From contig NZ_AP022560.1 in assembly GCF_010726085.1 (NCBI RefSeq), positions 2,294,001-2,358,000 on the forward strand: a DNA stretch of 64,000 nucleotides, written 5' to 3'. Below are positions 3,857-52,729 of this stretch, one piece after another. A model generated the notes under the pieces. That model saw nothing but the letters and a program-made list of their open reading frames with translations. It did not search any database and was not told the origin of the DNA. Numbering within the stretch: position 1 is the stretch's first letter; each line of letters opens with the position of its first letter. A program made the translations under genes and the position numbers. The DNA is from Mycolicibacterium moriokaense (GTDB lineage Bacteria > Actinomycetota > Actinomycetes > Mycobacteriales > Mycobacteriaceae).

Positions 3857-3871
3857 GAGAATAACATTCTC
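3857..3871. promoter_or_regulatory. Palindromic operator GAGAAT-N3-ATTCTC
   Basis: Perfect 6-bp arms with a 3-bp spacer, between the divergent SDR pair (start 3819) and MeaB (start 3915). The same palindrome recurs at 12978, 44829 and 52715, with a GAGAAC/GTTCTC variant at 44019. Probable binding site of a TetR-type repressor. Confidence 0.7.
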
Positions 3872-3914
3872 ATGTGGTCCATGACAGAAATACCTGCTCC
3901 GTAAGCTGTACGGA

Positions 3915-4784
3915 ATGACCATCGACGAGCTCATCGAGGCGGCGCGCAGCGGGTCCACCCGTGCGGCCGGCCGACTGCTGAGCCTGGTCGAAAGTGCGCG
4001 GCGCGGTGAGGTGCTCGATGCGCTCGGTTCGGTGCCTACCCCACAGGTCATCGGGGTGACCGGCCCGCCGGGCGCGGGCAAGTCGACCACGGTCGGCGCA
4101 CTCGTCAGCGCGTACCGCGAACGGCAGATGCGCGTGGCGGTGCTCGCAGTGGATCCGTCGTCGCCCTACAGCGGGGGAGCGCTGCTGGGCGACAGGATTC
4201 GAATGGCCGCGCATATCAACGACTCCGACGTGCTTATTCGGTCGGTGGCGGCGCGCGGTCACCTCGGCGGATTGGCTGCCGCGGTGCCGGCCGCCATCAG
4301 GCTGCTGGCTGCGTTGTCCTACGACCTCGTCGTGTTGGAGACGGTCGGCGTCGGCCAGTCGGAGATCGAGATCGCCGCCATCGCGGACCCGACGATCGTG
4401 ATCCTCAATCCCGGTGCGGGCGATGCGGTTCAGGCGGCCAAGGCCGGCCTGCTCGAGGTCGCCGACATCGTGGTCGTCAACAAGGCCGATCGCGAGGGAG
4501 CGGATCAGACGGTGCGCGACCTCAAGGCTGAAACTAAGGCGCCGATCCTGAAACTCGTTGCCGCAGAAGGGCAAGGCATTCCCGAGCTGGTCGATGCCAT
4601 CGAGGTCCACCATCGCACCGACAGCCCGGAGCGCCGCATTGCACGCGCCCGCGCCCAGATCCTGTCGCTGGCGCAGACGCGATTGCGCAGTCATCCTGAG
4701 CTGGATCGCCTGGCAGAGCAGGTCGCCGACGGCGGGTCGGATCCCTACGCCGCCACCGAGCAGCTGTTCACCGCCGAGCCCTAG
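3915..4784 (+). CDS. meaB: MeaB/ArgK-type GTPase (acyl-CoA mutase chaperone)
   Basis: 289 residues; known MeaB proteins are about 320-330. Walker A G-P-P-G-A-G-K-S at 50-57, D-P-S-S-P-Y-S-G-G-A-L-L-G-D-R-I-R-M switch region, E-T-V-G-V-G-Q-S-E, and N-K-A-D base-recognition motif. These G-proteins load and protect B12-dependent methylmalonyl- or isobutyryl-CoA mutases. No mutase lies in this window, so the partner must be elsewhere. The stop shares bases with the convergent SnoaL-like gene, and the promoter shares the operator at 3857. Confidence 0.88.
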   Translation: MTIDELIEAARSGSTRAAGRLLSLVESARRGEVLDALGSVPTPQVIGVTGPPGAGKSTTVGALVSAYRERQMRVAVLAVDPSSPYSGGALLGDRIRMAAHINDSDVLIRSVAARGHLGGLAAAVPAAIRLLAALSYDLVVLETVGVGQSEIEIAAIADPTIVILNPGAGDAVQAAKAGLLEVADIVVVNKADREGADQTVRDLKAETKAPILKLVAAEGQGIPELVDAIEVHHRTDSPERRIARARAQILSLAQTRLRSHPELDRLAEQVADGGSDPYAATEQLFTAEP

Positions 4785-5245
4785 CCGATCGCGGGCACGT
4801 CGGTCGGAAACGGCTGCGTCGTCACTGTACCGTCGCTGTTCCGCATCAGCGCGTCGTAACGACGGTGCAGGATCAGCCACGCGTCGCCGTTGCGGGTGTA
4901 CTCGTCGTGATAGACGCCTGAGATGATCAGGTTGACACCCTCGGCGCGTTTGCCCGTCTCCTGGACGAACCATCGGCCCACGGCGCGTACGGGATTCGAT
5001 GAGTCAACGACGACCACCCCGGACATCATCGCCTGCAGAAAGACGTTCCAGCCGTCGAGCATCGCGGTGAAGAACGCGACCATCGCATCGCGACCTTCGA
5101 AGCGTCCCAATTCCGGTGAATACCAGGTGCCGTCGGCTGCGAATGTTTCCGCGACGCCGGCTGCGTCACGACGTGATGCAGCATCGGCATAGCGGTGGAC
5201 GAGGTTGCGGATCTCCTGGTCATCCGCGTTGTGCCGGAACGTCAT
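4781..5245 (-). CDS. SnoaL-like (NTF2-fold) polyketide-cyclase family protein
   Basis: 154 residues, one alpha+beta barrel domain. The N-terminal pattern (D-D-Q-E-I-R-N-L-V-H-R-Y-A-D-A, then F-A-A-D-G-T-W-Y) is typical of SnoaL_4-type proteins, which can be isomerases, dehydratases or ring-hydroxylating beta subunits. ATG 5245 overlaps the upstream TetR stop by 4 bp, so it is co-transcribed with that regulator. A specific reaction cannot be assigned. Confidence 0.8.
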   Translation of the reverse strand: MTFRHNADDQEIRNLVHRYADAASRRDAAGVAETFAADGTWYSPELGRFEGRDAMVAFFTAMLDGWNVFLQAMMSGVVVVDSSNPVRAVGRWFVQETGKRAEGVNLIISGVYHDEYTRNGDAWLILHRRYDALMRNSDGTVTTQPFPTDVPAIG

Positions 5246-5826
5246 TCGGGCAGGCCCAGCATGCGGCTGGTCATCTGCTTCAACTGGGTGCGCAGGGTAT
5301 CGCCGTCGACGTCGGCGAGCAGCGGGTGCATGACGGCGACGCTGATCGCACTCGAGAGCATCGCCGCGTGTAAGCGCGCCTCGACGCCGGCCTCCGTCCC
5401 GAGCAACGCGGCGTAAAGCCGCTCGATGAACCGCTGGAACGGTTGATACTCGGCCTGCAGGCGAATGATCACCGGATCGAACATCGGCACGCGAAACGCG
5501 TCGCGTCGGTCGATGGCCTGCTCGACCATCCGATCCAAAAGCACCGCGCGTGCCCGCACGGGATGGCCCTCGGCCTCGGCGGCTTCCAGCACATCTTCGA
5601 GCTTGCTCATCTCGCGCTCGGTGATCGCGATGACGATCTCTTCCTTGGTCTTGAACTGGCGGTACACGGCCGCCTTCGTCACACCCATCTCGTCGGCGAT
5701 CATCTGTAGCGACGTCCCGCTCACGCCGTGCTCGGCAATCAGCTTCAACGCCGCATCGAGGACGCGGGTCTGTGCTGCGGTACGGGTGATCTCGCTGAAC
5801 TTGAGGTCATCCTGCGTGGATGTCAC
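5242..5826 (-). CDS. TetR-family transcriptional regulator
   Basis: 194 residues from GTG 5826; the frame stays open to 5925, but that region holds an operator and a hairpin. The N-terminal helix-turn-helix reads T-S-L-Q-M-I-A-D-E-M-G-V-T-K-A-A-V-Y-R-Q-F, followed by an all-helical ligand domain. The partner gene is a SnoaL-like protein. AGTTGCCGATCGGCTA lies 22 bp upstream of the start and recurs twice before the membrane operon at 8023, so this regulator probably controls itself and that operon. Confidence 0.9.
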   Translation of the reverse strand: MTSTQDDLKFSEITRTAAQTRVLDAALKLIAEHGVSGTSLQMIADEMGVTKAAVYRQFKTKEEIVIAITEREMSKLEDVLEAAEAEGHPVRARAVLLDRMVEQAIDRRDAFRVPMFDPVIIRLQAEYQPFQRFIERLYAALLGTEAGVEARLHAAMLSSAISVAVMHPLLADVDGDTLRTQLKQMTSRMLGLPE

Positions 5827-5847
5827 AGCGTCGAGCCTAGTCGAGCC

Positions 5848-5863
5848 AGTTGCCGATCGGCTA
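5848..5863. promoter_or_regulatory. Operator AGTTGCCGATCGGCTA (copy 1)
   Basis: 16 bp with the core TGCCGATCGGCA-like palindrome, upstream of the TetR start at 5826. Identical sequence occurs at 7955-7970 and an extended perfect palindrome at 7978-7995. Confidence 0.65.
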
Positions 5864-5879
5864 CTCGCCCTTCTCCAGC

Positions 5880-6613: not shown

Positions 6614-6640
6614 GGAATTCGCCGGGGAGCGGGGCACCCA

Positions 6641-7948
6641 GTGTCATCGATCCTGATCGTCGGGTTTTCTGCACACGGTCACGTGGCACCTCTGCTGGCC
6701 GCCGCCGAGAACTTCGTCAAACGCGGCGACGACGTCCGCTTCATCACCGGCGCACTGTTCGCCGACAAGGTTGCCGCCTCTGGTGCGACGTATATACCTG
6801 TGCATCCGGATGCCGACTTCGACGAGCAACCGCTGAACGAGCGATTTCCCGAACGCGCCGGACTTAAGGGGCGGAAGGCCATTGCCTTCGATATCGAGCA
6901 GGTCTTCGCCAAACCTGCCAAGCCCCAGTACGAAACGATCATCGCCGCGCTCGCAGTGCGCCCTGCCGACGTCGTCATCGCCGATATCGCTTCGCTCGGC
7001 GCCGCGTTCCTTCTCGGTCACCCACGTCCGGACCGGCCACCGGTGATCATGTGCGGAGTCATTCCGGTGGCTCTCGAGAGTCGCGACACCGCCCCCTACG
7101 GTATGGGACTGATGCCGGCCAGAATCGGGAACCGGGCACGAAATACGTTGCTGACAGCCATCTCTCGGCGCGTCCTGCGCGAGGGGTTTGCAGCCATCGA
7201 CGCCGCCCACCGACAGGTGCATGGCATCGACATGCCCTTCACGTTCATGGATTGGGGTCGGCACGCCGACGCCATCGCGCAGTTCTGTGTTCGGTCGTTC
7301 GACTACCCGATGTCCGACGCCCCGCGCAACCTCCACTTCATCGGGCCGCTGTCTCCGATGTGTTCGCAGACGCCGGTGCCGGACTGGTGGTCGGATCTCG
7401 ATGGAAGCCGACCCGTCATCCACGTCACGCAGGGGACGATCGCCAACAGCGACTACAGCCAAGCCATCGTGCCGACGCTGCGCGCCCTGGCTGACGAGGA
7501 CGTTCTCGTCGTGATCAGCACGGGTGGCCGACCCGTCGACACCCTCCCGCCGTTGCCTGCCAACGCGCGCGCGGCGACCTTCCTGCCCTACGACGAATTG
7601 CTGCCGCGCACTTCGGTTTTGGTGACCAACGGCGGATACGGCGGCGTTCAGTACGCCCTGCGATACGGCGTGCCGATCGTCGCGACCGGTGGTAAAGAGG
7701 ACAAGCCCGAGGTCGGCGCGCGCGTCGCATGGTCCGGTGTCGGGCGACGTCTCAAGACCGAACACCCGACGCCGAAGGCGATGCGCCGCAACATCCTCGC
7801 GGTTTTGAACGATCCGCGCTATCGCCAAGCCAGCAGGCGCATCGCGGTGGACATGGCCGCCGCGCCGGGGTTCGCCGGCCTGGCCGACATCGTCGACCGC
7901 CTCACCGGCAGACCCGCGACCGCAGGAGCCGAGACCGCCCAGCATTGA
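6641..7948 (+). CDS. GT1-family glycosyltransferase (MGT/UGT-like)
   Basis: 435 residues, GT-B fold. The N-terminal acceptor domain begins I-L-I-V-G-F-S-A-H-G-H-V-A-P-L, as in macrolide and glycopeptidolipid glycosyltransferases. The donor domain has H-V-T-Q-G-T-I and T-N-G-G-Y-G-G-V-Q-Y-A-L-R-Y-G-V-P-I-V-A, where many relatives have H-C-G-x-G-x. It should transfer a sugar from an NDP or dTDP donor to a lipid or small acceptor, acting in the cytosol. GTG start; divergent from a TetR gene. Confidence 0.85.
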   Translation: MSSILIVGFSAHGHVAPLLAAAENFVKRGDDVRFITGALFADKVAASGATYIPVHPDADFDEQPLNERFPERAGLKGRKAIAFDIEQVFAKPAKPQYETIIAALAVRPADVVIADIASLGAAFLLGHPRPDRPPVIMCGVIPVALESRDTAPYGMGLMPARIGNRARNTLLTAISRRVLREGFAAIDAAHRQVHGIDMPFTFMDWGRHADAIAQFCVRSFDYPMSDAPRNLHFIGPLSPMCSQTPVPDWWSDLDGSRPVIHVTQGTIANSDYSQAIVPTLRALADEDVLVVISTGGRPVDTLPPLPANARAATFLPYDELLPRTSVLVTNGGYGGVQYALRYGVPIVATGGKEDKPEVGARVAWSGVGRRLKTEHPTPKAMRRNILAVLNDPRYRQASRRIAVDMAAAPGFAGLADIVDRLTGRPATAGAETAQH

Positions 7949-8730: not shown

Positions 8731-9554
8731 GCGCCCCGACGACCGAAGCGGCGCCGCCAAGCGATTCACGGCTGGGCCGTCTTGTCTGGAACATCCGCTA
8801 TCACCCCAAGCGCGAGTTGTGGTTCGCGTGGTGGGTGATGGTCGTCTTCTACCAGTTGTACGGTGTGCTGTTCTTCCTCGTGACGAGGGTGCAGCCACCG
8901 CCGAGCCCTGACTGGGACACGCCATTGGTGGTGCAGTGGTTCGCCGATCGCCACCTCGGCCTGCTCACCGGATTCGGCGTCGTGTTCCTGATCTCGGGGA
9001 TGTGTGCGCCGATGAATGCCCTACTCGCATATTCGATGTGGCGGATGTCGGTCAGTCGCGTCTTCGCGTACTCGTACCTGATCATGTATTCGCTCGCCGC
9101 CCTGCCCGGCATGCTTGTGATGGCGATCGCGATGACCGTCGGCGCACTGCGACCGGACCGGGACCCCGAACTGATCGTGTGGATGTATGACTTCGCGTTC
9201 CTGTCGTTCAGCGGAACGATGGGGGTCTTCCTGGTCGGTTCAGTGGTCTGGCTGGTGGCGATCCTGCTCGACAAGAACAACGTGTTTCCGAAGTGGTTCG
9301 CCTATCTGGGGCTGTGCAATGCGCTGACCGAAGTCGTCGTCGCACCGGCCTGGATTTTCCAGCGCGGCGCATTCGCGTGGAACGGTGCGATCGCGTGGTG
9401 GATCAACATGGTCGTATTCATCACCTACACCGCGGCGTTCATCGTGCTATTGCGAAAGATGATCGAGCGCGAGGATTTCTGCACCGGACCGCTGCCTGAC
9501 CTGCCACCCAAAGGTGTGGCCGAACCTGCCGAATCCGTGGAGACGATCCGATGA
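8727..9554 (+). CDS. Conserved integral membrane protein, paralogue of upstream gene
   Basis: 275 residues, ATGA overlap with the upstream stop. Hydrophobic spans lie near 32-52, 77-104, 113-139, 157-181, 192-211 and 225-243, with a charged cytosolic N-terminus (W-N-I-R-Y-H-P-K-R-E). The Q-R-G-A-F-A-W-N-G segment matches the upstream protein's Y-E-G-P-F-A-W-D-G. Function unknown. The tight operon suggests the two membrane proteins act together with the downstream oxidase-like subunits. Confidence 0.8.
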   Translation: MSAPTTEAAPPSDSRLGRLVWNIRYHPKRELWFAWWVMVVFYQLYGVLFFLVTRVQPPPSPDWDTPLVVQWFADRHLGLLTGFGVVFLISGMCAPMNALLAYSMWRMSVSRVFAYSYLIMYSLAALPGMLVMAIAMTVGALRPDRDPELIVWMYDFAFLSFSGTMGVFLVGSVVWLVAILLDKNNVFPKWFAYLGLCNALTEVVVAPAWIFQRGAFAWNGAIAWWINMVVFITYTAAFIVLLRKMIEREDFCTGPLPDLPPKGVAEPAESVETIR

Positions 9555-10147
9555 CCGACCTCGCTGACGCCGAGTCGAAACGGCTCGAAAACAAGCCGCA
9601 ACGGCGAGTGCCCGGTCAGCCGGACATGTGGTTGTTCGTGCTTTTCGAAGCTCTGCTGTTCACCGGCTACTTTTCCGTCTACCTGGCCCTGCGCACGCAG
9701 AACGAGGACCTCTTCCTGCGATCCCAGGCGGATCTGGACCTACGCATCGGAGTCTTCAACACCATCGTCCTGCTGACGAGTTCGTGGGCGATCGCCCGAT
9801 GCGTCCGCGCCGCGCGCGACGGGTTGCACCACACGGCGATGACCTACGCATACGTCACCGTCGGTCTCGGCGTCACGTTCGTGATCTCGAAGGTCGTCGA
9901 ATGGATCCTGGAAATCCGGATGGGGAACACGTTCACCAGCGATGAGTTCTTCCAGCACTACTTCTTCCTCACGTCACTGCACTGCATTCATGTATTGATC
10001 GGCTTCATCGTGCTGGGTGTGGTCGTCTATCAGTTGCGGAGTCCGGCGCGACGTTCCCAGGAGCTGGTCGAGACGGGTGCAACATATTGGCACACAGTGG
10101 ATTTCCTGTGGGTTCTCATCTTCGCAATGCTCTACGTCGTGAGGTGA
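9551..10147 (+). CDS. Cytochrome c oxidase subunit III / NorE-like protein
   Basis: 198 residues with about five TM helices. The N-terminal P-G-Q-P-D-M-W-L-F-V-L-F-E-A-L-L-F-T-G-Y segment, the L-T-S-L-H-C-I-H-V-L-I-G helix and the terminal Y-W-H-T-V-D-F-L-W-V-L-I-F helix are typical of heme-copper oxidase subunit III. Subunits I and II are absent from the operon, so it may be an orphan subunit as in NorE-type arrangements or assemble with an oxidase encoded elsewhere. ATGA overlap with the upstream gene. Confidence 0.85.
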   Translation: MTDLADAESKRLENKPQRRVPGQPDMWLFVLFEALLFTGYFSVYLALRTQNEDLFLRSQADLDLRIGVFNTIVLLTSSWAIARCVRAARDGLHHTAMTYAYVTVGLGVTFVISKVVEWILEIRMGNTFTSDEFFQHYFFLTSLHCIHVLIGFIVLGVVVYQLRSPARRSQELVETGATYWHTVDFLWVLIFAMLYVVR

Positions 10148-12159: not shown

Positions 12160-12900
12160 TCAGGACAGGATCGCGGACAGTTCGTTGGCCGCCTTGATCA
12201 CCGCGTCCTTACCGCGCATCACCACGTCCTCGCGATGGGAGATGAGGTTGATGCACGTCGGCGGTGACGGCGGCTGCCTGCGTACGGGAACGGCCAACCC
12301 GTAAGTGTTCGGCTCGATCTCACCGTGGGTGATGACCCAGCCCTGCTCGCGGGTCTGCGGGACGAGATCGCGTTCGCCGGGCCTCGGCGGCATGCTCGCC
12401 AGCAGCGCGATGCCGGCCGCACCCCGGTCCAGCGGGTAGCGGCTGCCCTCGTGAAAGGCGAGTTGGTAGTACACGTTTGTCGGCACGATGACCGCGATGG
12501 CCACCTGCTGGTCGCCCTCGGCCACGAGGAGCGACACCGTGTTGCCGAGTTCGTCTGCCAACGCACGCAGCGTCGGCAGACTCAACTGGCGCACATGGTT
12601 GTCGAATGACGCACCGAGCACCGCCAGCGCGGCGGCCGCCCGGTAGCGGCCGTCTTCACCCTTGGCCACGAGCCGATACGCCGACAGCGTGGAGAGCAAG
12701 CGGTACGCGATCGTCCGGTGCACGCCGATGTCGTCGGCGACCTGTTGTGCCGTCAGCCCCGACCGGGACGTCGCGACCAGCTGCAACGCGGCCAGACCGC
12801 GCGCCAATGTCTGCGAGCCGGGCGCACCGGTCGGCGCGGCATTGGCGCTGGCCCCGCCGACCGAATCAGACATCCGTCCCGTCCTGACTTTCCTTGACAT
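12160..12900 (-). CDS. IclR-family transcriptional regulator
   Basis: 246 residues (ATG 12900; ATG 12873 also possible). The N-terminal winged helix is L-A-R-G-L-A-A-L-Q-L-V...L-T-A-Q-Q-V-A-D-D-I-G-V-H-R-T-I-A-Y-R-L-L, with an IclR effector domain behind it. It is divergent from C-C hydrolase, hydroxylase and extradiol dioxygenase genes, mirroring the E. coli mhp system, where the IclR member MhpR activates the operon. Its effector is likely an aromatic or ring intermediate of this pathway. Confidence 0.88.
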   Translation of the reverse strand: MSRKVRTGRMSDSVGGASANAAPTGAPGSQTLARGLAALQLVATSRSGLTAQQVADDIGVHRTIAYRLLSTLSAYRLVAKGEDGRYRAAAALAVLGASFDNHVRQLSLPTLRALADELGNTVSLLVAEGDQQVAIAVIVPTNVYYQLAFHEGSRYPLDRGAAGIALLASMPPRPGERDLVPQTREQGWVITHGEIEPNTYGLAVPVRRQPPSPPTCINLISHREDVVMRGKDAVIKAANELSAILS

Positions 12901-12977: not shown

Positions 12978-12992
12978 GAGAATTCAATTCTC
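12978..12992. promoter_or_regulatory. Palindromic operator GAGAAT-N3-ATTCTC
   Basis: Perfect copy ending 20 bp before the GTG of the C-C hydrolase; the flanking ACG/CGT extend it to a 19-bp palindrome (12976-12994). It indicates TetR-type control of the meta-cleavage operon in addition to the IclR regulator. GTGCAC/GTGCG-rich DNA at 12930-12960 may be the IclR site. Confidence 0.7.
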
Positions 12993-13012: not shown

Positions 13013-13906
13013 GTGCCGGAATCGTCCCGACAACTCGCAGACGCGGATTTCGAGAGTGTCTGGAGCGACCTCCAAGGCGTCGCGTTCTCGCAGGGGTACC
13101 TCGACGCGGGTGGAGTGCGCACGCGTTATCTCCACGCTGGCGATCCGGACAAGCCGGTGCTCGTCTTTCTGCACGGTTCGGGCGGGCACGCCGAGGCGTA
13201 CGTGCGAAACCTGGAGGCGCATGCCGAGCATTTCTCGACATGGTCGATCGACATGCTCGGGCACGGATATACGGACAAGCCCGGACATCCGTTGGAGGTG
13301 GAACACTATCTCTCCCATCTGATGGCGTTCCTCGACGCGATCGGTGCACAGCGCGCCCACATCAGTGGTGAGTCGCTCGGCGGCTGGGTGGCCGCGCGCG
13401 CCGCCGTCGACCATCCCGACCGGGTCGATCGACTTGTGCTCAACACCGCGGGCGGATCGCAGGCCGACCCTGAGGTGATGAAGCGCATCATCACGCTGTC
13501 GATGGCGGCCGCGGAAAACCCGACGTGGGAAACGGTCCAGGCGCGCATCAAGTGGTTGATGGCCGACAAGTCCAAGGATTACGACGATATCGTCGCCAGC
13601 CGCCAGCGGATCTACCGCCAGCCCGGATTCGCCGCCGCGATGAAAGACATCATGGCGCTGCAGGATCCGGAGATTCGTGCGCGAAACCTGCTCGGACCGA
13701 AGGAATACGGGTCGATCACCGCGCCCACGATGGTGGTGTGGACCAGCGATGACCCGACGGCCGACGTCGACGAGGGACGCCGAATCGCGTCGATGATCCC
13801 CAATGCCCGGTTCGAGCTGATGCCCGGCTGTGGGCACTGGCCACAGTACGAGGACCCCAAGACGTTCAACCGGCTGCACCTCGACTTCCTGCTGGGACGG
13901 CCATGA
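13013..13906 (+). CDS. Alpha/beta hydrolase, meta-cleavage-product (C-C bond) hydrolase-like
   Basis: 297 residues; GTG start with AGAGAGG upstream. Oxyanion segment F-L-H-G-S-G-G-H-A, nucleophile Ser121 in G-E-S-L-G-G, acidic residue in T-S-D-D-P-T, and terminal His in G-C-G-H-W-P-Q-Y-E. This pattern fits MhpC/BphD/HsaD hydrolases that split the 2-hydroxy-6-oxo-dienoate made by extradiol dioxygenases. ATGA overlap with the flavin hydroxylase and the nearby dioxygenase gene support that role. Confidence 0.85.
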
Positions 13907-15591
13907 GCGTCGAGCAGGTGGATGTCGTCATCGTCGGCGCCGGACCGTCGGGGCTGACGCTGGCGAACATCCTTGGGCTGCAGGGCGTCCGAACTCTCAT
14001 CGTCGAGGAGCGGGACACGCTCATCGATTATCCCCGTGGGGTCGGACTCGACGATGAGGCGCTGCGCACCTTCCAGTCCATCGGCCTGGTCGACCGCGTC
14101 CTGCCGCACACCGTGCCGAACCAGATCCTGCGCTTCTTCGACGCCAAACGCCGGCTGCTCGCCGAAATGGCGCCGCCCGACGCACGTTTCGGCTGGCCCA
14201 AGCGCAACGGCTTCGTCCAGCCGATGGTCGATGCGGAACTGTACGGCGGGTTGGAGCGATTCGACCACGTCGAGGTTCGGTGGGGGCACCGGATGGAGAG
14301 CTGCGTCGAAACCGGCGACGGCGTCACTGTCGGATTCGCCGACGGCAGGGATCCGGTGCACGCCCGCTACGTCGTCGGATGTGACGGCGGCCGCAGCGCC
14401 ACCCGCCGCTTGATGGGGGTGTCGTTCGACGGAACGACGTCCTCGACCCGCTGGCTGGTGGTCGACGTCGCGAACGATCCGCTCGGTCATCCGAACAGCG
14501 AAGTGGGAGCCGATCCCGCACGTCCTTACGTGTCGATCTCGATCGCGCACGGCATCCGACGTTTCGAGTTCCTCATCCACGACGACGAGTCCGACGAACT
14601 CGCCGATGATCCGGCGTTCGTCAGACGCATGCTCGCGCAGCGTGTTCCGCATCCCGATCGGGTCGACATGATCCGCCATCGCGTGTACACCCACCACTCG
14701 CGCATCGCGGGATCGTTTCGCAAGGGGCGCCTGTTGCTGGCCGGCGATGCCGCACACCTGATGCCGGTATGGCAGGGCCAGGGCTACAACAGCGGCATCC
14801 GGGACGCCGCCAACCTCGGGTGGAAGCTCGCCGCGGTGGTGAACGGCCAGGCCGGCGACGCCCTGCTGGACACCTACGACGTCGAGCGTCGCAAACATGC
14901 GCGCGCGATGATCGACCTGTCCACGATGGTGGGACGGGTCATCTCGCCGACCAACCGACGGGTGGCAGCCCTGCGCGACCGGGTGATTCACGGTGCGTCG
15001 CTCGTGCCGACCTTGAAGCGCTACGTGCTGGAGATGCGGTTCAAGCCCATGCCGCGTTATCAGCAGGGTGCGGTGTGCCATGCCGACTACAGCGCACCCA
15101 ACTCGCCGGCAGGCACCCTGTTCATCCAGCCCAGCGTCGACACCCGAACGGCACAGAACGTTCTGCTCGACGATGTCTTCGGCCCCGGCTTCGTGGTGCT
15201 GTGCTGGAGCAACAACCTGCGCGCCGTACTCGGCGACGAAGCGTTCAACCGCTGGAAAGCGTTGGGGGCCAGATTCGTCGAGGCGCGGCCCATGACGCAG
15301 CTGCAGTGGCCCGGCCACGATGACCCCGACGTGGTCGTCGTCGGCGACCGTACCGGCGCGCTGAAGTCCTGGTTCGACGTCTACACCGATTCTGTGTTGT
15401 TCGTGCGGCCCGACCGCTGCATCGCAGGTGCCTGCATCGCGCAGCGCGCGCCTGAAATGAGCGAATCGCTTTTCGGCGTCCTCTGTCTCACCCAGGAAGG
15501 AGGCTCGAGTTCTCATGGCGACACTGGCCCTGTGCTGCATGTCGCACAGTCCGCTACTGAACCTTCCGGGACCGTCACAGGATCTTCTTGA
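13903..15591 (+). CDS. FAD-dependent aromatic hydroxylase, MhpA-like
   Basis: 562 residues. FAD motif [10 protein letters not shown] near 9-18, and the second FAD motif [17 protein letters not shown] around 284-300, as in group A flavoprotein monooxygenases such as 3-(3-hydroxyphenyl)propionate hydroxylase. It would ortho-hydroxylate a phenolic ring to give a catechol. The end is unusual: the reading frame runs 77 nt into the dioxygenase gene, and its last 25 residues are low-complexity and unlike the family. Confidence 0.85.
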
Positions 15592-43153: not shown

Positions 43154-43168
43154 CAGAATCTGCTTCTC
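43154..43168. promoter_or_regulatory. Imperfect GAGAAT-N3-ATTCTC-like site
   Basis: CAGAATCTGCTTCTC differs from the consensus at two arm positions. It lies upstream of the P450 (start 43025) and touches the 3' end of the thioesterase gene. Weaker than the other copies. Confidence 0.4.
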
Positions 43169-43988
43169 AATCCCGTTTGGCGAAGCGCACGAGAGCCTCC
43201 TGGCCATAGGAGGCGACCAGGACGCCGTCGCGGGTGAGCACGTCGCCACGACCGAAGCTGCGGCCGTGCGCCAGCAGGGGACTGTGCTGACGCAACAGCA
43301 GCCAGTCGTCGGTGCGGAACGGCCGGTGGAACCACACGGTGTGGGAGGTGACCGCGGACGCGAAGGTCGTGCCATTGCCGCGCTGGTCAGCGCCCTCGAT
43401 CGGGCGCAGCGCGGTACCGATCAACGTCAGGTCCGTGGCATAAGCAGCCAGCGCCGGCGCCAGCGCGGCGTCGACATTCGGGGTGCGCATCCATACCTCG
43501 AACTGCGGGGGGCCGACGGTCGGGTCGTTGAGATCGACCGCCGCTCGCGTCTCCCACGGGATCAGGTCGAGCGGGATCTCGTACTCGGGGCCGAGCACCG
43601 GCCCGACCTCCTCGACCTCCTGGTGTTCGGGACCATCTTCGAGGACGTGCATGCTGATCGACGCGGTCGCGATGACGCCGCGACTCGGTTGCGTCGCAGT
43701 GATCGTGACCGCACCGAACGACTTGCCCTCATGGGCACGAACGGCCTGATAACGGACCGGTTCGGCGGCCCGGCCCTCGCGGGTGAACACCGTGTGCAGC
43801 GATTTGACCGCTTTATCCGGGCAGGTCAGCGAGGCGATCTGGAGAAGTTGGCCAAGGAGTTGGCCGCCGAATACCCGGTAGTACTCCAGCTGTTGATTGC
43901 GGCCCTCGTACTCGGCCGTTTCACCGTTTTGGGTCGACGGACCGGGGATGTCCAGACAGCGGAGCAGATCGATCCAGAGATCGGGCAC
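43167..43988 (-). CDS. Acyl-CoA thioesterase, TesB family (double hotdog)
   Basis: 273 residues from GTG 43988. N-terminal hotdog with V-F-G-G-Q-L-L-G-Q-L-L-Q and the H-T-V-F-T-R-E-G-R segment; C-terminal hotdog with S-H-T-V-W-F-H-R-P-F-R-T-D-D-W-L-L, which carries the family's substrate-pocket region. It would release free acid and CoA during beta-oxidation or regulate CoA supply. Operator-like palindromes at 44008-44033 lie just before the start. Confidence 0.88.
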   Translation of the reverse strand: MPDLWIDLLRCLDIPGPSTQNGETAEYEGRNQQLEYYRVFGGQLLGQLLQIASLTCPDKAVKSLHTVFTREGRAAEPVRYQAVRAHEGKSFGAVTITATQPSRGVIATASISMHVLEDGPEHQEVEEVGPVLGPEYEIPLDLIPWETRAAVDLNDPTVGPPQFEVWMRTPNVDAALAPALAAYATDLTLIGTALRPIEGADQRGNGTTFASAVTSHTVWFHRPFRTDDWLLLRQHSPLLAHGRSFGRGDVLTRDGVLVASYGQEALVRFAKRD

Positions 43989-44007: not shown

Positions 44008-44033
44008 TTCTCGTCGACGAGAACGAAGTTCTC
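44008..44033. promoter_or_regulatory. Overlapping operator palindromes
   Basis: TTCTCGTCGACGAGAA (44008-44023) is a perfect 16-bp palindrome and overlaps GAGAACGAAGTTCTC (44019-44033), a variant of GAGAAT-N3-ATTCTC. Three half-sites stand within 27 bp, 20 bp upstream of the thioesterase start. Confidence 0.65.
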
Positions 44034-44046: not shown

Positions 44047-44772
44047 CTAGCTGGCGGCGAATCCGTGGGCGCAGAAGTCCCAGAGTTCTTCGGCGGTGAT
44101 CGGATGCGACGCCGCGTCCGTGGAGTCCTCGCCGGCGGATTGCGCCGCGTTGAACATCACGGTCTGCATCGTCATGGCCGCCATCCGCTTCGGGTTGATG
44201 CCTTCCCGCAGCTGACCTGCGGCGCTGGCCTCTTCCATGAGCTCGGTCAGCAGAGCCAACAGAGGCGCGTGGGCGATCTTCACCTCGGACGGATGCGAGA
44301 CCAGAAGTCGAGGAGCGAAGTCGGTGAACAATGGCCGCTTGGCGGTGGGATCCGGCCGCGACGACTCGAACAGCAGCTGAATGGCTACCTTCAGGCGCTC
44401 GATCGGCTCATCAGGGCCGCTCGTGGCCGCGCGGATCTGGTCCGCAGAGCGGGCGAGGGCATCTTCGAACAGCGCCAGCAGCAGCTCGTGTTTACCGTCG
44501 AACTGCAGGTAGAAGCTTCGCAGCGACTGGCGCGAGCGGTCGACGACCTCTTGGACGGTGAAGTCGGTGCTGCCCTTCTCGATGATGATCGCCTGGGCGG
44601 CATCGAGGAATCTCTGGACGCGTTGCGCGGCCCGGAGCTTCGCGGTTTTGATCGATCGCTCGACCGCGCGCTGCTTCCAGGCGGGCTCTTCGCTGGGGAT
44701 GGTCACGGGCGGCTCGGATGCTGCCCGACTTGGGAGAACATGGACTGACTGTACCGGAGAACGCCTTGCCAT
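44047..44772 (-). CDS. TetR-family transcriptional regulator, candidate master regulator
   Basis: 241 residues from ATG 44772; GTG 44706 (219 residues) is also plausible. The helix-turn-helix is F-T-V-Q-E-V-V-D-R-S-R-Q-S-L-R-S-F-Y-L-Q-F, preceded by a basic N-terminal arm. It lies divergent from an acyl-CoA dehydrogenase, with a perfect GAGAAT-N3-ATTCTC copy between them, and another variant copy beyond its 3' end. It is the best candidate to bind this palindrome across the window; ligand unknown, probably an acyl-CoA or pathway intermediate. Confidence 0.86.
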   Translation of the reverse strand: MARRSPVQSVHVLPSRAASEPPVTIPSEEPAWKQRAVERSIKTAKLRAAQRVQRFLDAAQAIIIEKGSTDFTVQEVVDRSRQSLRSFYLQFDGKHELLLALFEDALARSADQIRAATSGPDEPIERLKVAIQLLFESSRPDPTAKRPLFTDFAPRLLVSHPSEVKIAHAPLLALLTELMEEASAAGQLREGINPKRMAAMTMQTVMFNAAQSAGEDSTDAASHPITAEELWDFCAHGFAAS

Positions 44773-44828: not shown

Positions 44829-44843
44829 GAGAATAGTATTCTC
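44829..44843. promoter_or_regulatory. Palindromic operator GAGAAT-N3-ATTCTC
   Basis: Perfect copy in the 131-bp divergent promoter between the TetR gene and the acyl-CoA dehydrogenase at 44904. It is consistent with autoregulation. Confidence 0.72.
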
Positions 44844-44903: not shown

Positions 44904-46079
44904 TTGCAGCTGACCTTCGACGCCGACGTCGAGGCCTTCCGTGCGGAGTTCATCGCCTTTCTGGACGAGCATCTGCCCACGGACCTCGAGGCGCTGGACC
45001 GTTCGCGCTCCAGCAGCGATGTTCCGGAGTGGGCGCGGCGCTGGCAGCGGCTGATGTTCGACAACGGCTGGCTGATGCCGGGCTATCCGCCCGAGTTCGG
45101 GGGCCGCAAGGCCACCATCCTCCAGCAGTACGTCCACCAGGAGGAACTGGCACGTCGCAGGGCCTATCTCACCTTCAACCCGCAGGGCGTCGGCATCATC
45201 TCCGCGTCGCTGATCTCGTTCGGTACCCCCGAGCAGCAGCAGCGCTGGGCCGTCCCCATCCTGCGCGCCGAGATGACGGCGTCGCTGGGGATGAGTGAGC
45301 CGGGTGCGGGATCCGACCTCGCATCCCTGCGCACCCGCGCCGAACTCGACGGCGACGAGTTCGTGGTCAACGGGCAGAAGGTGTGGACCTCCGGCGCCCA
45401 TGACGCCGATGTCCTTCTGACATTCGTTCGCACTGATCCGAATGCCCCCAAGCACAAAGGCATCAGCGTGCTGATGATCCCGACGGACCTGCCCGGTGTG
45501 GTGCGACGTCCCTTCGCCTCGGTATGCGATGCCGACGACCTGGATTTCAACGAGGTCTTCTTCAACGATGTCCGCGTGCCCGCCGAGAACCTCGTCGGCC
45601 CACTGAACGGGGGCTGGCAGGTGGCCAACGGGTCCCTGGGCCACGAGCGGAACATGTTGTGGCTCAGCTATGCCGACCGTTTGCAGGAACTCATCGAAGA
45701 TTTCCACCCGGCCAGCCCGCTCGACCGTGACCGCTACGCCAGGCTCGTCATGGACAACCAGGCTCTCCGCCTGCTCGGCTCGGTGGCGCTGGCCCGCGCC
45801 GCGCGCGGCGACGAGGACGCCGCGGCACTTTCCGTTCTCAAGCTCTTCGGCTCCGAAGCATCGCAATCGGCGACCGAGTACGCGCTCTCCGCCGCGGGCG
45901 CCGATGGCCTGAACTGGCCGGGTTTCTCCGGGCCCTACAGCGCGCAACACCTCGACCTCTACCGGAGCGCCTGGTTCGAGCGATACGTCAGGACGTTCGG
46001 CGGCACCATCGCCGGCGGCACCTCGGAGATTCAACGCAACATCATCGCCCAGCGACTGCTGGGCCTTCCCCGCAATTAG
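44904..46079 (+). CDS. Acyl-CoA dehydrogenase
   Basis: 391 residues, TTG start with GAGGAG upstream. M-S-E-P-G-A-G-S-D-L-A-S-L near 131-143, K-V-W-T-S-G-A, and the C-terminal F-G-G-T-I-A-G-G-T-S-E-I-Q-R-N. It is first in a two-gene operon with a crotonase and is likely controlled by the palindrome at 44829. It oxidises an acyl-CoA to enoyl-CoA; substrate unknown. Confidence 0.9.
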   Translation: MQLTFDADVEAFRAEFIAFLDEHLPTDLEALDRSRSSSDVPEWARRWQRLMFDNGWLMPGYPPEFGGRKATILQQYVHQEELARRRAYLTFNPQGVGIISASLISFGTPEQQQRWAVPILRAEMTASLGMSEPGAGSDLASLRTRAELDGDEFVVNGQKVWTSGAHDADVLLTFVRTDPNAPKHKGISVLMIPTDLPGVVRRPFASVCDADDLDFNEVFFNDVRVPAENLVGPLNGGWQVANGSLGHERNMLWLSYADRLQELIEDFHPASPLDRDRYARLVMDNQALRLLGSVALARAARGDEDAAALSVLKLFGSEASQSATEYALSAAGADGLNWPGFSGPYSAQHLDLYRSAWFERYVRTFGGTIAGGTSEIQRNIIAQRLLGLPRN

Positions 46080-46087: not shown

Positions 46088-46870
46088 GTGTACATCGAAT
46101 ACGAAGTCGCCGACAAGATCGCCACCATCACCCTGAACCGGCCCGAGGCCGCCAACGCACAGAACACCGAGTTCCTCGACGAGTTGGACTCCGCGTGGAC
46201 GCGGGCCGCGGAGGACAACGATGTCGCGGTGATCATCCTGCGCGCCAACGGAAAACACTTCTCGGCCGGACACGATCTGCGCGGCGGCGGACCCATCCCC
46301 GACAAGATCACGCTCGAGTTCCTCATCCAGCACGAGCACCGGCGCTACCTCGAATACACGCTTAAATGGCGCAACGTGCCCAAGCCGTCGATCGCTGCCG
46401 TGCAGGGCCGCTGCATCTCCGGTGGCCTGCTGCTGTGCTGGCCGTGCGATCTCATCGTCGCCGCCGATGACGCGTTGTTCTCTGACCCGGTGGTGCTGAT
46501 GGGTATCGGTGGCGTCGAATACCACGGCCACACCTGGGAACTGGGGCCGCGTAAGGCCAAGGAGATCCTGTTCACGGGTCGGGCGATGACGGCCGATGAG
46601 GTCGCGAGCACCGGAATGGTCAACCGGGTGGTGCCGCGCGACCAACTCGATTCCGAGACCAGGGCATTGGCCGAACAGATCGCCAAGATGCCGAGTTTTG
46701 CGCTGCGCCAAGCCAAACGGGCCGTCAACCAGACTCTCGACGTGCAGGGCTTCTACGCGGCCATCCAATCGGTGTTCGACATCCACCAGACCGGCCACGG
46801 CAACGCGCTGAGCGTGAGCGGCTGGCCGGTGCTGGTGAACCTCGACGATATGAAGGCGAATATCCAGTAG
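46088..46870 (+). CDS. Enoyl-CoA hydratase/isomerase family protein
   Basis: 260 residues, GTG start 8 bp after the dehydrogenase stop. Oxyanion loop H-F-S-A-G-H-D-L and G-R-C-I-S-G-G-L-L-L-C-W-P-C-D-L; both glutamates of classic crotonase are replaced (Leu, Val), so the reaction may not be simple hydration. It is convergent with the acyl-CoA dehydrogenase pair, leaving a 3-bp gap. Confidence 0.87.
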   Translation: MYIEYEVADKIATITLNRPEAANAQNTEFLDELDSAWTRAAEDNDVAVIILRANGKHFSAGHDLRGGGPIPDKITLEFLIQHEHRRYLEYTLKWRNVPKPSIAAVQGRCISGGLLLCWPCDLIVAADDALFSDPVVLMGIGGVEYHGHTWELGPRKAKEILFTGRAMTADEVASTGMVNRVVPRDQLDSETRALAEQIAKMPSFALRQAKRAVNQTLDVQGFYAAIQSVFDIHQTGHGNALSVSGWPVLVNLDDMKANIQ

Positions 46871-48801: not shown

Positions 48802-49256
48802 CCGGCCTCCGGCCGGCCGATCGCGTGTGGTCGCCCCGAATCATGGTCTCCGCTGCGCCGGATGAACGTCATGGCGCGGGTTTTCAGCCGCCACCCGTCG
48901 TCGGTGCGGACATAGGTGTCGTTGTAGTAGCCGATGCGCATGTCGTGTTTGGAGTGCTCGATGAAGCACAGCGGCTGTGTGCCGGTGGCCTTGTCGGGAT
49001 CGGCGTCATCGAAGGTCACCAGGGATGTGCCCGTCATGAACAGTCCCTTTGGGGCGGCCTCGACGAGCTCTGGAAAGCGCGCCAACGTGTACGTGGAGCC
49101 GAACGCGCTGTACGTGCCGTCCGGCGTGAACACCGAGATCAGTCCGTCGATGTCGCCTTGGGTGATCGTGACCGCATACCTGGCGAGCAGCTGCTGGATC
49201 TCGACGAGATCGTCCGTTCGTGGTGGGGCCGCAGGCCGACTATTGCTTGGCGTCAT
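48798..49256 (-). CDS. SnoaL-like (NTF2-fold) protein
   Basis: 152 residues; the N-terminal helix and strand pattern (I-Q-Q-L-L-A-R-Y-A-V-T-I-T-Q-G-D-I-D-G-L, F-T-P-D-G-T-Y-S) is typical of SnoaL_4. It may act as an isomerase, dehydratase or small ring-hydroxylating beta-like subunit. Its start overlaps the upstream amidohydrolase end by 17 bp, so it belongs to the long leftward Rieske operon. Confidence 0.8.
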   Translation of the reverse strand: MTPSNSRPAAPPRTDDLVEIQQLLARYAVTITQGDIDGLISVFTPDGTYSAFGSTYTLARFPELVEAAPKGLFMTGTSLVTFDDADPDKATGTQPLCFIEHSKHDMRIGYYNDTYVRTDDGWRLKTRAMTFIRRSGDHDSGRPHAIGRPEAG

Positions 49257-50466
49257 TCTTGAAGACCTTACCGCCCTTCATTACAAAACTTACATTCCGT
49301 GTAACGGTGATATCCGCCAGCGGATCGCCGGGTACGGCGATGATGTCTGCCAGGTAGCCCTCGGCGATGCGGCCGAGGTCCGATCTGTCGATCAGGTCCG
49401 CGGCGACGACCGTGGCCGCCCGCAGCACCGCGTCGGCAGGCATGCCCCAGTCGACCAGCGTGACGAGTTCATCGGCATTTTTTCCGTGCGGGATCGCTGG
49501 GGCGTCGGAGCCGACCGCGATCTTCGCCCCGGCCTCATACGCCGCCTGGATGGACGTACGCGCCTTCGGGAACATCTCGGCGGCCTTGTCCTGCAACTCC
49601 TTTGGAGCTCTGGACACGTCCATCGCCTCGGCCAGTCGGCGGGTGGTGACCAGGAACCGGTCGTTGTCCACCAGCATCTTGATGGCCTCGTCGTCCATCA
49701 GGAAGCCGTGCTCGATGCAGTCGATACCGCACGCCACAGCGTGTTTGACGGCCTCCGCGCCGTGGGTGTGCGCGGCGACCTTCAGGCCGCGACGGTGTGC
49801 CTCGTCGACGATCGCCCGCAGTTCGTCGTCCGAATAGTGTTGTGCCCCAGCCTCACCGGTCAGCGACATCACTCCGCCGGACACGCACACCTTGATCACC
49901 TGGGCGCCGTGCTTGATCTGGTAACGGACGGCCTTGCGGACTTCGTCGACGCCGTTGGCGATGCCCTCCTCGACCGTCAACTCGAGCGCACCGGGCATGA
50001 ACGCGGCGAACATCGTCGGGTCGAGATGCCCGCCGGTCGGGGTGATCGCGTGACCCGCGGGCACAATCCGCGGACCGTCGATCCATCCGGCGTCGATGGC
50101 CCTGCCGAGCGAGACGTCGAGGAGGTAACCGCCTGTCTTGATGAACAATCCGAGGTTGCGCACCGTGGTGAACCCCGCGCGCAGTGTGCGCCTCGCATTA
50201 CCGACGGCACGCAGCACGCGGATCGCGGGATCGTCCTGCACCTGGGACAGGCCCGGGGTCTCACCCCGCCCGCCCATCAGGAGGTTGACCTCCATGTCCA
50301 TCAGGCCAGGCAGCAGGATGGCGTCCCCGAGATCGATGACCTGATCGTCGGGACCTGCCGCCCCGCCGACGCCGACGATCCGATCGTCTTCGATGAGAAC
50401 GATTCCCGGTCGGACGATCTCGCCGGCGTCGACGTCGAGTAGACCCGCGGCCTTGAGGGTCAGCAC
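49240..50466 (-). CDS. Amidohydrolase, imidazolonepropionase-like, with altered first metal motif
   Basis: 408 residues from GTG 50466, 2 bp after the upstream stop. The composite beta-domain plus TIM barrel includes V-K-V-C-V-S-G-G (carboxylated Lys region), A-A-H-T-H-G, I-E-H-G-F, and G-S-D-A-P-A-I-P-H-G. The usual strand-1 H-x-H is E59-V-N61 (L-M-D-M-E-V-N), so the alpha-metal ligands differ from classic members. It could hydrolyse a cyclic amide or lactone, or act with one metal. Confidence 0.83.
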   Translation of the reverse strand: MLTLKAAGLLDVDAGEIVRPGIVLIEDDRIVGVGGAAGPDDQVIDLGDAILLPGLMDMEVNLLMGGRGETPGLSQVQDDPAIRVLRAVGNARRTLRAGFTTVRNLGLFIKTGGYLLDVSLGRAIDAGWIDGPRIVPAGHAITPTGGHLDPTMFAAFMPGALELTVEEGIANGVDEVRKAVRYQIKHGAQVIKVCVSGGVMSLTGEAGAQHYSDDELRAIVDEAHRRGLKVAAHTHGAEAVKHAVACGIDCIEHGFLMDDEAIKMLVDNDRFLVTTRRLAEAMDVSRAPKELQDKAAEMFPKARTSIQAAYEAGAKIAVGSDAPAIPHGKNADELVTLVDWGMPADAVLRAATVVAADLIDRSDLGRIAEGYLADIIAVPGDPLADITVTRNVSFVMKGGKVFKNDAKQ

Positions 50467-50468
50467 GG

Positions 50469-50798
50469 TCAGACCACCGGCTCCTTGATACAGGTGATGT
50501 AGGTGGCGCCGCTGTCGAGCACGCGGGGCTGCTTCCACACCTCGATGGGGAACGACACGTTGACCAGCGACTGCATCATGTGAATGAGAGCCTTTGCATC
50601 GTCGGGCATTCCGTCCAGCGGGAACCTGGCATCGCAGTATTCCATGACTGCCTCCAGGCGCGGAAAGGCTGCGTCGTAGAACTCCTGCAACTCCTCCATG
50701 GAGGAGGCCAGTCGCTTCTGATAGCGGTCTTCCTCGTTGGGCAGGCACCAATCGGTGAAGCGTTCCAGGTCGGCGAACTCTGGTGGCAACTTAGGCAT
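50469..50798 (-). CDS. Small conserved protein of unknown function linked to Rieske oxygenase
   Basis: 109 residues from ATG 50798, overlapping the Rieske stop by 8 bp. It is acidic and mostly helical by eye (E-D-R-Y-Q-K-R-L-A-S-S-M-E-E-L-Q-E-F), with two Cys (W-C-L-P and Y-C-D-A) but no signal peptide, TM helix or metal motif. I do not recognise the family. Its position between the oxygenase and an amidohydrolase suggests a dedicated accessory or enzyme of that step. Confidence 0.75.
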   Translation of the reverse strand: MPKLPPEFADLERFTDWCLPNEEDRYQKRLASSMEELQEFYDAAFPRLEAVMEYCDARFPLDGMPDDAKALIHMMQSLVNVSFPIEVWKQPRVLDSGATYITCIKEPVV

Positions 50799-52146
50799 TG
50801 ATGGCGTCCTTCTTGCTGGCGTTCGACGTGGCGTGACCATTGGCGTCACCGTTGGTATCGCCGTTGGTCAGGCCCTTTTCCTTCTTGTACGCGTTGACGT
50901 AATCCCATGCCGTCTTGTGCAGGTGACGCAGCAGAATCTCCTGATCGCACAACGGGAAGTCGGTGACGACCCGGGTGCCGATCTGTGTCTGGGTGGCCTC
51001 CAGCGTGTTGGCGTCCTGGAACGCATACTCCTTGAACGTGACCGCCGCGAGCTCGTGGGCGAGCCGTTCGCGGGTGTTGGTGGCCGGCACGAAGTACAGG
51101 GTGCACTCGAAGATGTGCTTGTCCACATCGGTAGGCCAGTAGTGGTAGGTGAGGTACCAGCCCGGCGCCCACAGCAGCAGGGTGAAGTTGGGAAAGAACT
51201 CGAACGAGTCCTGACCCCACGCGTGGTGGCGCGACGGGTTGACCGCCGGTGGCAACTCGTCGGGCAGGATGCCCTTGATCTTCGGCCGGTCCCACGGGCC
51301 GAACAGCCCGCTGTGCAGCACCCGCTCGATCGGCTTGACCATGTTCTCGTCCTTCGGCGGGCTCATGCCGCCCCAGGACGAGATCATCGAGTGCTGACCT
51401 TTGATGTCGTAGTGCAGCGCCTCGAAACCGTAGCTCGCGAGCTTCTCGGCTTCCTCCTTGACCGCCTGCTTCATGTGCAGGATCGGCGCGTGGTAGAACT
51501 CGACGAACGCGTCGATGAACAGCTTCCAGTTGGCGTTGACTTCGGCTCGGTAGCTGTAGGTTTCGGTCATCTCATGGAAGGGATAGCCCTCCAGACCCTT
51601 CGCGAATTCACCGAGATAGTCGGTCAACGGCTCGGCGTCGTTGTCGAAGTTGATGAAGATGAAGCCTTCCCACACCTCGCAGCGCACGGGCACCAGTCCG
51701 TAGTCGCCCTTGTCGAGGTCGAAGAACTCGTCCTCCTGCTGCACGAAGGTGAGGTCACCCTCGAGGCTGTAGCGCCAGGCGTGGTACTTGCAGGTGAACT
51801 GACGGCAGGTGCCCGACACCTCGTCACCCGGATAGTCGTTCCACACCAGCTTGTTTCCGCGGTGGCGGCACAGGTTGTAGAAGGCGCGAACCTTCTCCTG
51901 CTTGTCCTTGACGATGATGACCGACGTGCCCTTGCCGGCGGACGGCATCTCCTTGGTGAAGTAGCTGCCCTTCTTGGGGAGTCGCTCCACGCGTCCGACG
52001 TTGAGCCAGCACTTGCGGAAGATGGCCTGCTGTTCGAGCTTCCACTGCTCGGGATCGATCGAATCGGTGTAATCGACCGGCGCCGTTCCCAGTTCGGGCC
52101 AGTTCTCAGTCCAACTGCCCGCCGCCGGCTTGGGGAAAAATGCCAC
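50791..52146 (-). CDS. Rieske non-heme iron oxygenase, alpha subunit
   Basis: 451 residues from GTG 52146 (AGAGAGG upstream); a longer frame to 52224 is not needed. Rieske cluster C-R-H-R-G-N ... C-K-Y-H-A-W (2Fe-2S) and mononuclear Fe region N-W-K-L-F-I-D-A-F-V-E-F-Y-H-A-P-I-L-H. It would hydroxylate a ring or side chain. No ferredoxin or reductase gene is adjacent. The C-terminal tail has three 12-bp-repeat N-G units (D-T-N-G-D-A-N-G-H), probably a disordered extension. Confidence 0.92.
   Translation of the reverse strand: MAFFPKPAAGSWTENWPELGTAPVDYTDSIDPEQWKLEQQAIFRKCWLNVGRVERLPKKGSYFTKEMPSAGKGTSVIIVKDKQEKVRAFYNLCRHRGNKLVWNDYPGDEVSGTCRQFTCKYHAWRYSLEGDLTFVQQEDEFFDLDKGDYGLVPVRCEVWEGFIFINFDNDAEPLTDYLGEFAKGLEGYPFHEMTETYSYRAEVNANWKLFIDAFVEFYHAPILHMKQAVKEEAEKLASYGFEALHYDIKGQHSMISSWGGMSPPKDENMVKPIERVLHSGLFGPWDRPKIKGILPDELPPAVNPSRHHAWGQDSFEFFPNFTLLLWAPGWYLTYHYWPTDVDKHIFECTLYFVPATNTRERLAHELAAVTFKEYAFQDANTLEATQTQIGTRVVTDFPLCDQEILLRHLHKTAWDYVNAYKKEKGLTNGDTNGDANGHATSNASKKDAINA
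50838..50873. repeat. 3 x 12-bp tandem repeat in Rieske gene tail
   Basis: CCATTGGCGTCA, CCGTTGGTATCG and CCGTTGGTCAGG follow one another and encode the Asn-Gly-rich C-terminus of the Rieske protein on the minus strand. Copy number could vary between strains. Confidence 0.6.
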
Positions 52147-52153
52147 GGTTTGT

Positions 52154-52693
52154 CTACCTCTCTGCGTGTTCTTCTGCGTCGGGTTCGACACCGAACGTGT
52201 TGATAGCCATGGCGAGTGCGCCATAGCAGCCGATGGTGAAGACGAGATCCATCCGTTGGCGCTCGTCGAGGTGCTCCGAGAGCGCCGCCCAGGTGGCGTC
52301 GGAGATCACCGAGTCGTCCTCGAGCTCATCCACGGCCGCGATGACCGCGCGGTCGAGTGCGTCGGCCGCCTCACCGCGCTGGATACCCTCGATGACCTCG
52401 GGGGTCAGGCCCGCCTCGCCGCCCATGCGGACGTGGTGGCGCCATTCGTACTCGCAGTGGCGCCGGTGGGCGACGCGCAGCACCGCCAGCTCGCGCAACC
52501 GTTCCGGCAGCGTCGACCCGTAGAGCAAGTGGAAGTTGAAGCGCAGGAACGCCCGGGTCAGCTTGGGGTGGCGGACGAGTGTCGCGACGAGGTTGCCCGC
52601 GGCCTCCGGGTTGCGGCGCTCGATCGGCATGTTCGACAGCGCACGGTCGACGGCGTCATCCCACTGGTCAGCGGGGAGCGGCGAGACACGCAC
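52154..52693 (-). CDS. Carboxymuconolactone decarboxylase (AhpD-like) family protein
   Basis: 179 residues from GTG 52693, preceded by GAGAGGAAG. The frame continues to 52741 but that extension would translate the operator at 52715-52729. The CMD fold shows L-R-E-L-A-V-L-R-V-A and E-Y-E-W-R-H-H; there is no C-x-x-C redox pair, so it is not a peroxidase of AhpD type. Relatives act on muconolactone-like lactones or in fatty acid and steroid operons. It heads the leftward Rieske operon. Confidence 0.84.
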   Translation of the reverse strand: MRVSPLPADQWDDAVDRALSNMPIERRNPEAAGNLVATLVRHPKLTRAFLRFNFHLLYGSTLPERLRELAVLRVAHRRHCEYEWRHHVRMGGEAGLTPEVIEGIQRGEAADALDRAVIAAVDELEDDSVISDATWAALSEHLDERQRMDLVFTIGCYGALAMAINTFGVEPDAEEHAER

Positions 52694-52714
52694 CGACGGC
52701 TTCCTCTCGTTCAC

Positions 52715-52729
52715 GAGAATTAGATTCTC
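52715..52729. promoter_or_regulatory. Palindromic operator GAGAAT-N3-ATTCTC
   Basis: Perfect copy (spacer TAG) 22 bp upstream of the CMD start and about 225 bp before the amidohydrolase at 52954. The 260-bp divergent region also has TTCTC (52861) facing GAGAA (52873) across seven bases. Confidence 0.72.

Follow-up and report, generated by a model that had tools for sequence, protein, structure and literature searches.

We analysed a window of 64,000 nucleotides from Mycolicibacterium moriokaense (positions 2,294,001-2,358,000 of a single contig; genome of 6,225,779 bases) and found that one palindrome, GAGAAYNNNRTTCTC, recurs between its catabolic genes and on both sides of a gene for a TetR-family regulator (44047-44772, minus strand; positions are window-relative unless stated otherwise). 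It is very probable that this TetR reads the palindrome, represses a catabolic island of about 145 kb and is released by a pathway intermediate, perhaps an acyl-CoA; we infer binding, repression, effector and substrate from the sequence. That the protein at 44047-44772 is the reader of the motif is almost certain on the same grounds. A single palindrome that marks several operons as well as the promoter of the regulator gene itself, and that is conserved together with the regulator, fits the kind of regulon in which a TetR would control a catabolic pathway.

The window holds five perfect copies of the motif, compared to 0.03 expected, and none of 100 dinucleotide shuffles reached five. All are intergenic. 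The first, GAGAATAACATTCTC (3857-3871), lies between genes for an SDR oxidoreductase (3055-3819, minus) and a MeaB-type GTPase (3915-4784, plus), and the second, GAGAATTCAATTCTC (12978-12992), between an IclR-family regulator gene (12160-12873, minus) and an mhp-type meta-cleavage operon (plus). GAGAACGAAGTTCTC (44019-44033) is upstream of a gene for an acyl-CoA thioesterase II-like protein (43167-43988, minus), and GAGAATAGTATTCTC (44829-44843) occupies the divergent promoter region of TetR and an acyl-CoA dehydrogenase gene (44904-46079, plus). The fifth copy, GAGAATTAGATTCTC (52715-52729), separates a CMD/Rieske operon (49240-52693, minus) from the gene of an Amidohydro_2 hydrolase (52954-54249, plus). 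An imperfect candidate, CAGAATCTGCTTCTC (43154-43168; two mismatches), is located upstream of a cytochrome P450 gene (41829-43025, minus) and shares two bases with the stop codon of the thioesterase gene. These are the copies that the initial annotation of this DNA had listed as four perfect sites (3857, 12978, 44829 and 52715), a variant (44019) and an imperfect site (43154), and all were found where it had placed them.

A genome-wide search, which that annotation had proposed, showed that the motif is not common at random. Nine perfect copies occur in the 6.23 Mb, all within 141 kb (genome positions 2,292,083-2,432,766) and none elsewhere, while the reversed motif used as a control has no copy in the genome. 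Four of the nine lie beyond the ends of the window, at -1917, 87724, 103263 and 138752. When one mismatch was allowed, 41 additional genomic places were obtained compared to 7 for the control. Only three of the 41 (103139, 116489 and 141535) lie inside the island or no more than 3 kb away, so this class is weakly concentrated there. With up to two mismatches the window contains 15 matches where 5.6 are expected, and we therefore regard that class as mostly noise. The nine perfect sites and the three one-mismatch sites near the island all fall between genes called with our own gene caller, from which the gene starts are taken and whose calls span 94% of 200 kb; this agrees with the earlier placement of sites near gene starts, with the qualification that longer in-frame open reading frames (ORFs) would cover the sites at 3857 (ORF 3055-3882) and 52715 (ORF 52154-52741). 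In an alignment of 70 sites, 84% of half-sites have T at position 6, and little signal is seen beyond the motif; the arms of the motif are invariant because the search pattern itself selects them.

The motif and the regulator occur together across the family. We sampled 301 genomes of Mycobacteriaceae and took a best match with E below 1e-69 as a TetR orthologue. At least one motif site is present in 212 of these genomes. The mean number of sites is 8.0 in the 77 genomes with an orthologue and 1.26 in the 224 without, and at least six sites were found in 65 of the former as compared to 5 of the latter (Fisher P 4e-47, which overstates independence since the genomes are related). Within the genus of the window, TetR is carried by 28 of 29 genomes, with 6-12 sites each, and the genome that lacks it has 1 site. 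Among the sampled genomes of other genera in the family, 49 of 272 carry TetR. Four genomes without TetR have 6-8 sites each, and these 28 sites are scattered on different contigs or lie far apart.

The same sample bears on the possibility that the IclR-family protein (12160-12873) reads the motif and that TetR is merely one of its targets. Its gene adjoins the site at 12978, and the protein matches a PcaR/PcaU/PobR-type IclR model weakly, below the cut-off. Matches to it at E 1e-40 were obtained in 42 of the 301 genomes; 28 of these are the TetR carriers of the window's genus, at 78-100% identity, and in the remaining 14 the identity is 42-48%. Close orthologues (at least 78% identity) were found only in the window's genus. 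Of the 49 TetR genomes from other genera, on the other hand, 44 have no IclR match at E 1e-40 and 37 still have at least six sites, while nine genomes with an IclR match and no TetR orthologue have 0-2 sites. A reader role for the IclR protein is highly improbable on this co-occurrence, and we rejected it. The initial annotation linked the site at 12978 to the meta-cleavage operon and passed over the divergent IclR gene.

We then compared the TetR locus itself between genomes. A scan of species genomes with TetR gave 379 loci, of which the best 80 were used; the titles of all 80 name Mycobacterium, Mycolicibacterium or Mycobacteriaceae. These loci are the closest relatives, and site conservation among them is therefore conservation within one genus. 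In each of the 80 loci a perfect site precedes the matched TetR region by 44-56 bp. The thioesterase-side site just downstream of TetR is perfect in 54 and has one mismatch in 9. Of the 76 loci with 6.7 kb or more of sequence upstream of TetR, 71 have an additional perfect site at a distance of over 1 kb on that side, in most cases where 52715 lies in the window. Six of eight loci inspected (L086-L090 and L092) have a counterpart of the imperfect site at 43154, located 1625-1634 bp past the point at which the matched TetR region starts, and some copy with up to two mismatches occurs 1-2.2 kb past that point in 42 of 80.

For the comparison of targets we used eight genomes, each of a different genus and one (G197) of the window's own, with one-way best tblastn matches. 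Of the 79 sites in these genomes, 62 fall in the fetched regions and were analysed, and 17 lie outside them. The start of an island homologue is faced within 450 bp by 59 of the 62. Among genes with a site, 56 of 83 best-match a gene that has a site here, compared to 41 of 565 genes without a site; when the genome of the same genus was removed, the figures were 43 of 68 and 40 of 425 (P 1.3e-21). The site before TetR itself was found in all eight genomes. Sites precede the homologues of the AMP ligase (-1837), the SDR oxidoreductase (3055), an acyl-CoA dehydrogenase (103323) and an amidohydrolase (138789) in seven genomes each, that of the CMD gene (52154) in six and that of the thioesterase (43167) in five. 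In five of the seven other genera (G250, G045, G259, G123 and G095) the gene that faces TetR across the common site best-matches 103323, not 44904. Judged from these matches, gene order is rearranged between genera while the recurrent targets are homologues of the same genes. The mhp-type operon with its site is also present in G197; the regions fetched from the seven remaining genomes contained no match to it, so this operon looks like a later recruit.

Taken together, the genomic clustering, the co-occurrence, the upstream copies at 80 of 80 loci and the conserved targets support one regulon with TetR as the reader, as the initial annotation had put forward when it named the TetR at 44047-44772 as candidate regulator of one catabolic regulon. 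The same observations, along with the shuffle counts, oppose the idea that the motif arose by chance or as a structural repeat and has no protein to read it. Nothing was found in favor of this idea, which is hardly conceivable, and we rejected chance as an explanation.

A scan for promoter elements around the sites, which yields predictions and was run without a chance control, suggests how the regulator might act. At 44829 the motif holds a predicted -10 element (TAGTAT) for the acyl-CoA dehydrogenase gene, 17 bp after TTGTAA. Predicted elements in the same register are present at 138752 (TTGTTA-17-TAAGAT) and 3857 (CTGGCA-17-TAACAT). The motif also overlaps predicted elements at 103263 and 116489 (-10) and at 44019 (-35). 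On the TetR side of 44829, TACAAT lies 13 bp beyond the motif, which would place the motif on the -35. The location of the motif on predicted -10 and -35 elements at several sites fits repression and autoregulation. We propose that GAGAAY-N3-RTTCTC is the operator of the TetR encoded at 44047-44772 (minus), and that a bound TetR dimer would cover the -10 or the -35 of promoters across the catabolic island of about 145 kb. TetR would in this way repress the island promoters, including its own divergent promoter, until it is released from DNA by an intermediate of the pathway, for which an acyl-CoA thioester is the most likely candidate.

Several observations weigh against this model. Eleven of the 77 TetR genomes have three or fewer sites, and 17 of the 80 loci have no thioesterase-side site, either perfect or with one mismatch. 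Of the 62 sites analysed in other genomes, three have no island homologue in front of them, and for two the homologue is weak (<50% identity). In the promoter scan no -10/-35 pair was found for the facing gene at 12978 (plus), 52715 (minus) or 87724, and at -1917 and 141535 there is no such pair that overlaps the motif. The window encodes a second protein with a TetR_N domain (5242-5826, minus), beside a SnoaL-like gene and 1.4 kb from the site at 3857. Finally, the structural hint of an acyl-CoA effector comes from a mediocre fold model: the predicted TetR fold (predicted local distance difference test, pLDDT, 73) matches YvdT, FadR, AibR and KstR2 at a template modelling (TM) score of about 0.5, and these matches hint only weakly at such an effector.

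One possible explanation for the sites that lack a predicted promoter overlap (5 of the 12 island sites) is that TetR reads the motif as an activator, or acts at some sites only with a second factor serving the rest; the set of site-bearing genes also differs between genera. We consider this unlikely, as at 44829, 138752 and 3857 the motif covers the predicted -10 in one register, the usual place of a repressor. It could also be speculated that the main regulator is a different TetR that uses the same operator, either 5242-5826 or a paralogue encoded elsewhere. Identities of 29-33% to 44047-44772 were obtained for other TetR proteins of this genome, and one of them (G000:C1:1903604-1904445, 29% identity) lies beside a one-mismatch site at genome position 1,904,431. 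Among these proteins, only that at 44047-44772 has perfect sites on both sides, and co-occurrence with the sites, examined for this TetR, holds across genomes; a different main regulator of this family is very unlikely.

The TetR encoded at 44047-44772, which we favor as reader and repressor, is a member of its family. Its predicted fold is essentially all-helical, and TetR_N (PF00440) is present in the precomputed annotation of all 120 listed homologues, while its NCBIfam TetR-family matches are all below cut-off. When nine genomes of eight genera are compared, identity is 95% in the DNA-binding region and 71% in the remainder. A search for named TetR relatives in a plasmid collection gave no match at E 1e-20. 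Extra TetR copies were observed in other genomes: several of genus g23 (G174, G229, G277, G283, G289 and others) have a second or third copy at 57-68% identity, and three of the window's genus (G187, G246 and G285) have two copies each, at about 76-77% identity. These copies possibly reflect duplicated islands.

The gene has an alternative start at 44706. We noted a 12-codon mini-ORF (44741-44703, minus) whose stop overlaps the GTG at this position, an overlap kept in 76 of the 80 loci (GTGA in 75, ATGA in 1) and absent from the other four. In the 77 of 80 loci that have TGA there, variation along the stretch is highest mainly at wobble positions of the TetR frame and not at those of the mini-ORF. 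The variation follows the TetR frame, so in mycobacteria the stretch is more likely the N-terminus of a 241-residue TetR. In G174 and G250 the TetR frame carries stops in this stretch, and the start, 44772 or 44706, may differ between genera.

Behind the acyl-CoA dehydrogenase that diverges from TetR is a gene of the enoyl-CoA hydratase/isomerase family (46088-46870, plus), and an acyl-CoA dehydrogenase with an enoyl-CoA hydratase (347-2203, plus) follows the AMP ligase that stands after the site at -1917. The Rieske operon encodes a CMD protein (52154-52693), a Rieske oxygenase (50791-52146), a small ORF and an amidohydrolase. The mhp-type operon begins with an MhpC/HsaD-like C-C hydrolase (13013-13906, plus; below the HsaD cut-off). 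It continues with an MhpA-type 3-(3-hydroxyphenyl)propionate hydroxylase (13903-15591, plus; NF004828, 1117 bits compared to a cut-off of 853) and MhpB, a LigB-type 3-carboxyethylcatechol 2,3-dioxygenase (15515-16459, plus; NF009910, 535 bits compared to 291; structure match 8k04). A KstD-like flavoprotein follows (16447-18225, plus). It exceeds the cut-off of the FAD-binding protein subfamily model NF009473 (1102 bits compared to 837) and matches 7p18, a 3-oxosteroid 1-dehydrogenase, at 8.5e-120, while the KstD equivalog models score below their cut-offs.

Across the island, 60-odd scanned proteins include four P450s, one of them closest to CYP150A6, as well as Rieske oxygenases, five Amidohydro_2 proteins, acyl-CoA dehydrogenases, hydratases and AMP ligases. 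Searches of the Protein Data Bank with island proteins for clues to the substrate gave enzyme classes only. From the set of CoA ligases, acyl-CoA dehydrogenases, hydratases, P450s, Rieske oxygenases, amidohydrolases, the KstD-like enzyme and the mhp module, the substrate is most likely a ring-containing (cyclic) isoprenoid or steroid-like acid. We also noted several further proteins. An 810-residue protein (30640-33072) has two CoA-transferase family III matches. A fusion of a DUF35 (ChsH2-like) domain with a lipid-transfer-protein-like thiolase (L016:15643-17286; 95643-97286, minus) has its best known-structure matches in 6ok1, where the lipid-transfer protein and ChsH2 are two separate chains; 6ok1 is a steroid side-chain aldolase pair. 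A COX3-like protein (9551-10147) and a protein with an EryCIII-like glycosyltransferase domain (6641-7948) are encoded amid the catabolic genes.

These results supply a regulator, a candidate operator and a list of targets for a large gene island. Deletion of tetR should activate the pathway even when the substrate is not known in advance, which would open the way to substrate discovery and make the use of the P450s and Rieske oxygenases testable.

The proposed regulon resembles those of KstR and KstR2 in some respects. Operators of KstR have AGAAC-like half-sites, as does the motif described here, with a spacer of 2 bp in contrast to its 3-bp spacer. The KstR-type pattern, TNNAACNNGTTNNA, has no match in the surrounding 200 kb, in line with the earlier view that the motif is not that of KstR, and TetR scores 19.3 bits against NF033703 (cut-off 280); we rejected both KstR control and the identification of TetR as a KstR orthologue. 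What the two share is the TetR family and a lipid-catabolic regulon of many operons in mycobacteria, which for KstR serves cholesterol catabolism (PMC1995591 and PMC3068626). KstR2, which controls degradation of rings C/D and responds to HIP-CoA as effector according to PMC6593523, is likewise of the TetR family, has CoA-ligase and acyl-CoA dehydrogenase targets and is among the fold matches. Control by KstR2 was rejected, as its pattern, ANCAAGNNCTTGNT, has no site in the 200 kb. The acyl-CoA-responsive repressors FadR and AibR are among the nearest folds too, with about 15-21% identity at a TM score of about 0.5. Their operators and pathways differ from those found here.

The nearest published comparison comes from Mycobacterium sp. 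VKM Ac-1817D, in which a palindrome named 'motif X' was predicted to be the TetR operator of the Rv0767c orthologue G155_05115. According to PMC6593523, it was derived from expression and sequence and precedes P450 and dehydrogenase genes, and the G155_05115 locus tags sit among P450 and steroid-isomerase genes, not beside an acyl-CoA dehydrogenase and a thioesterase. Sites of Rv0767c are reported to be rich in GAC/GTC (PMC10312376), unlike the motif here; context and reported trinucleotide preference differ between the two systems, which may nevertheless be the same. A survey of mycobacterial TetR proteins gives motif logos for 30 regulators named by M. tuberculosis locus (PMC4482099). In the open-access literature, with most subscription papers outside the scope, we found no description of the motif or the regulon, and searches with the motif letters gave nothing mycobacterial; within the open literature searched, both are therefore undescribed. 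The chances are about even that Mycobacteriaceae have, next to the programmes of KstR and KstR2, a third large one for ring degradation, with TetR as its master repressor and a steroid-like or terpenoid substrate, and that in the window's genus an older, shared regulon took up an mhp-type aromatic meta-cleavage module and a KstD-like enzyme.

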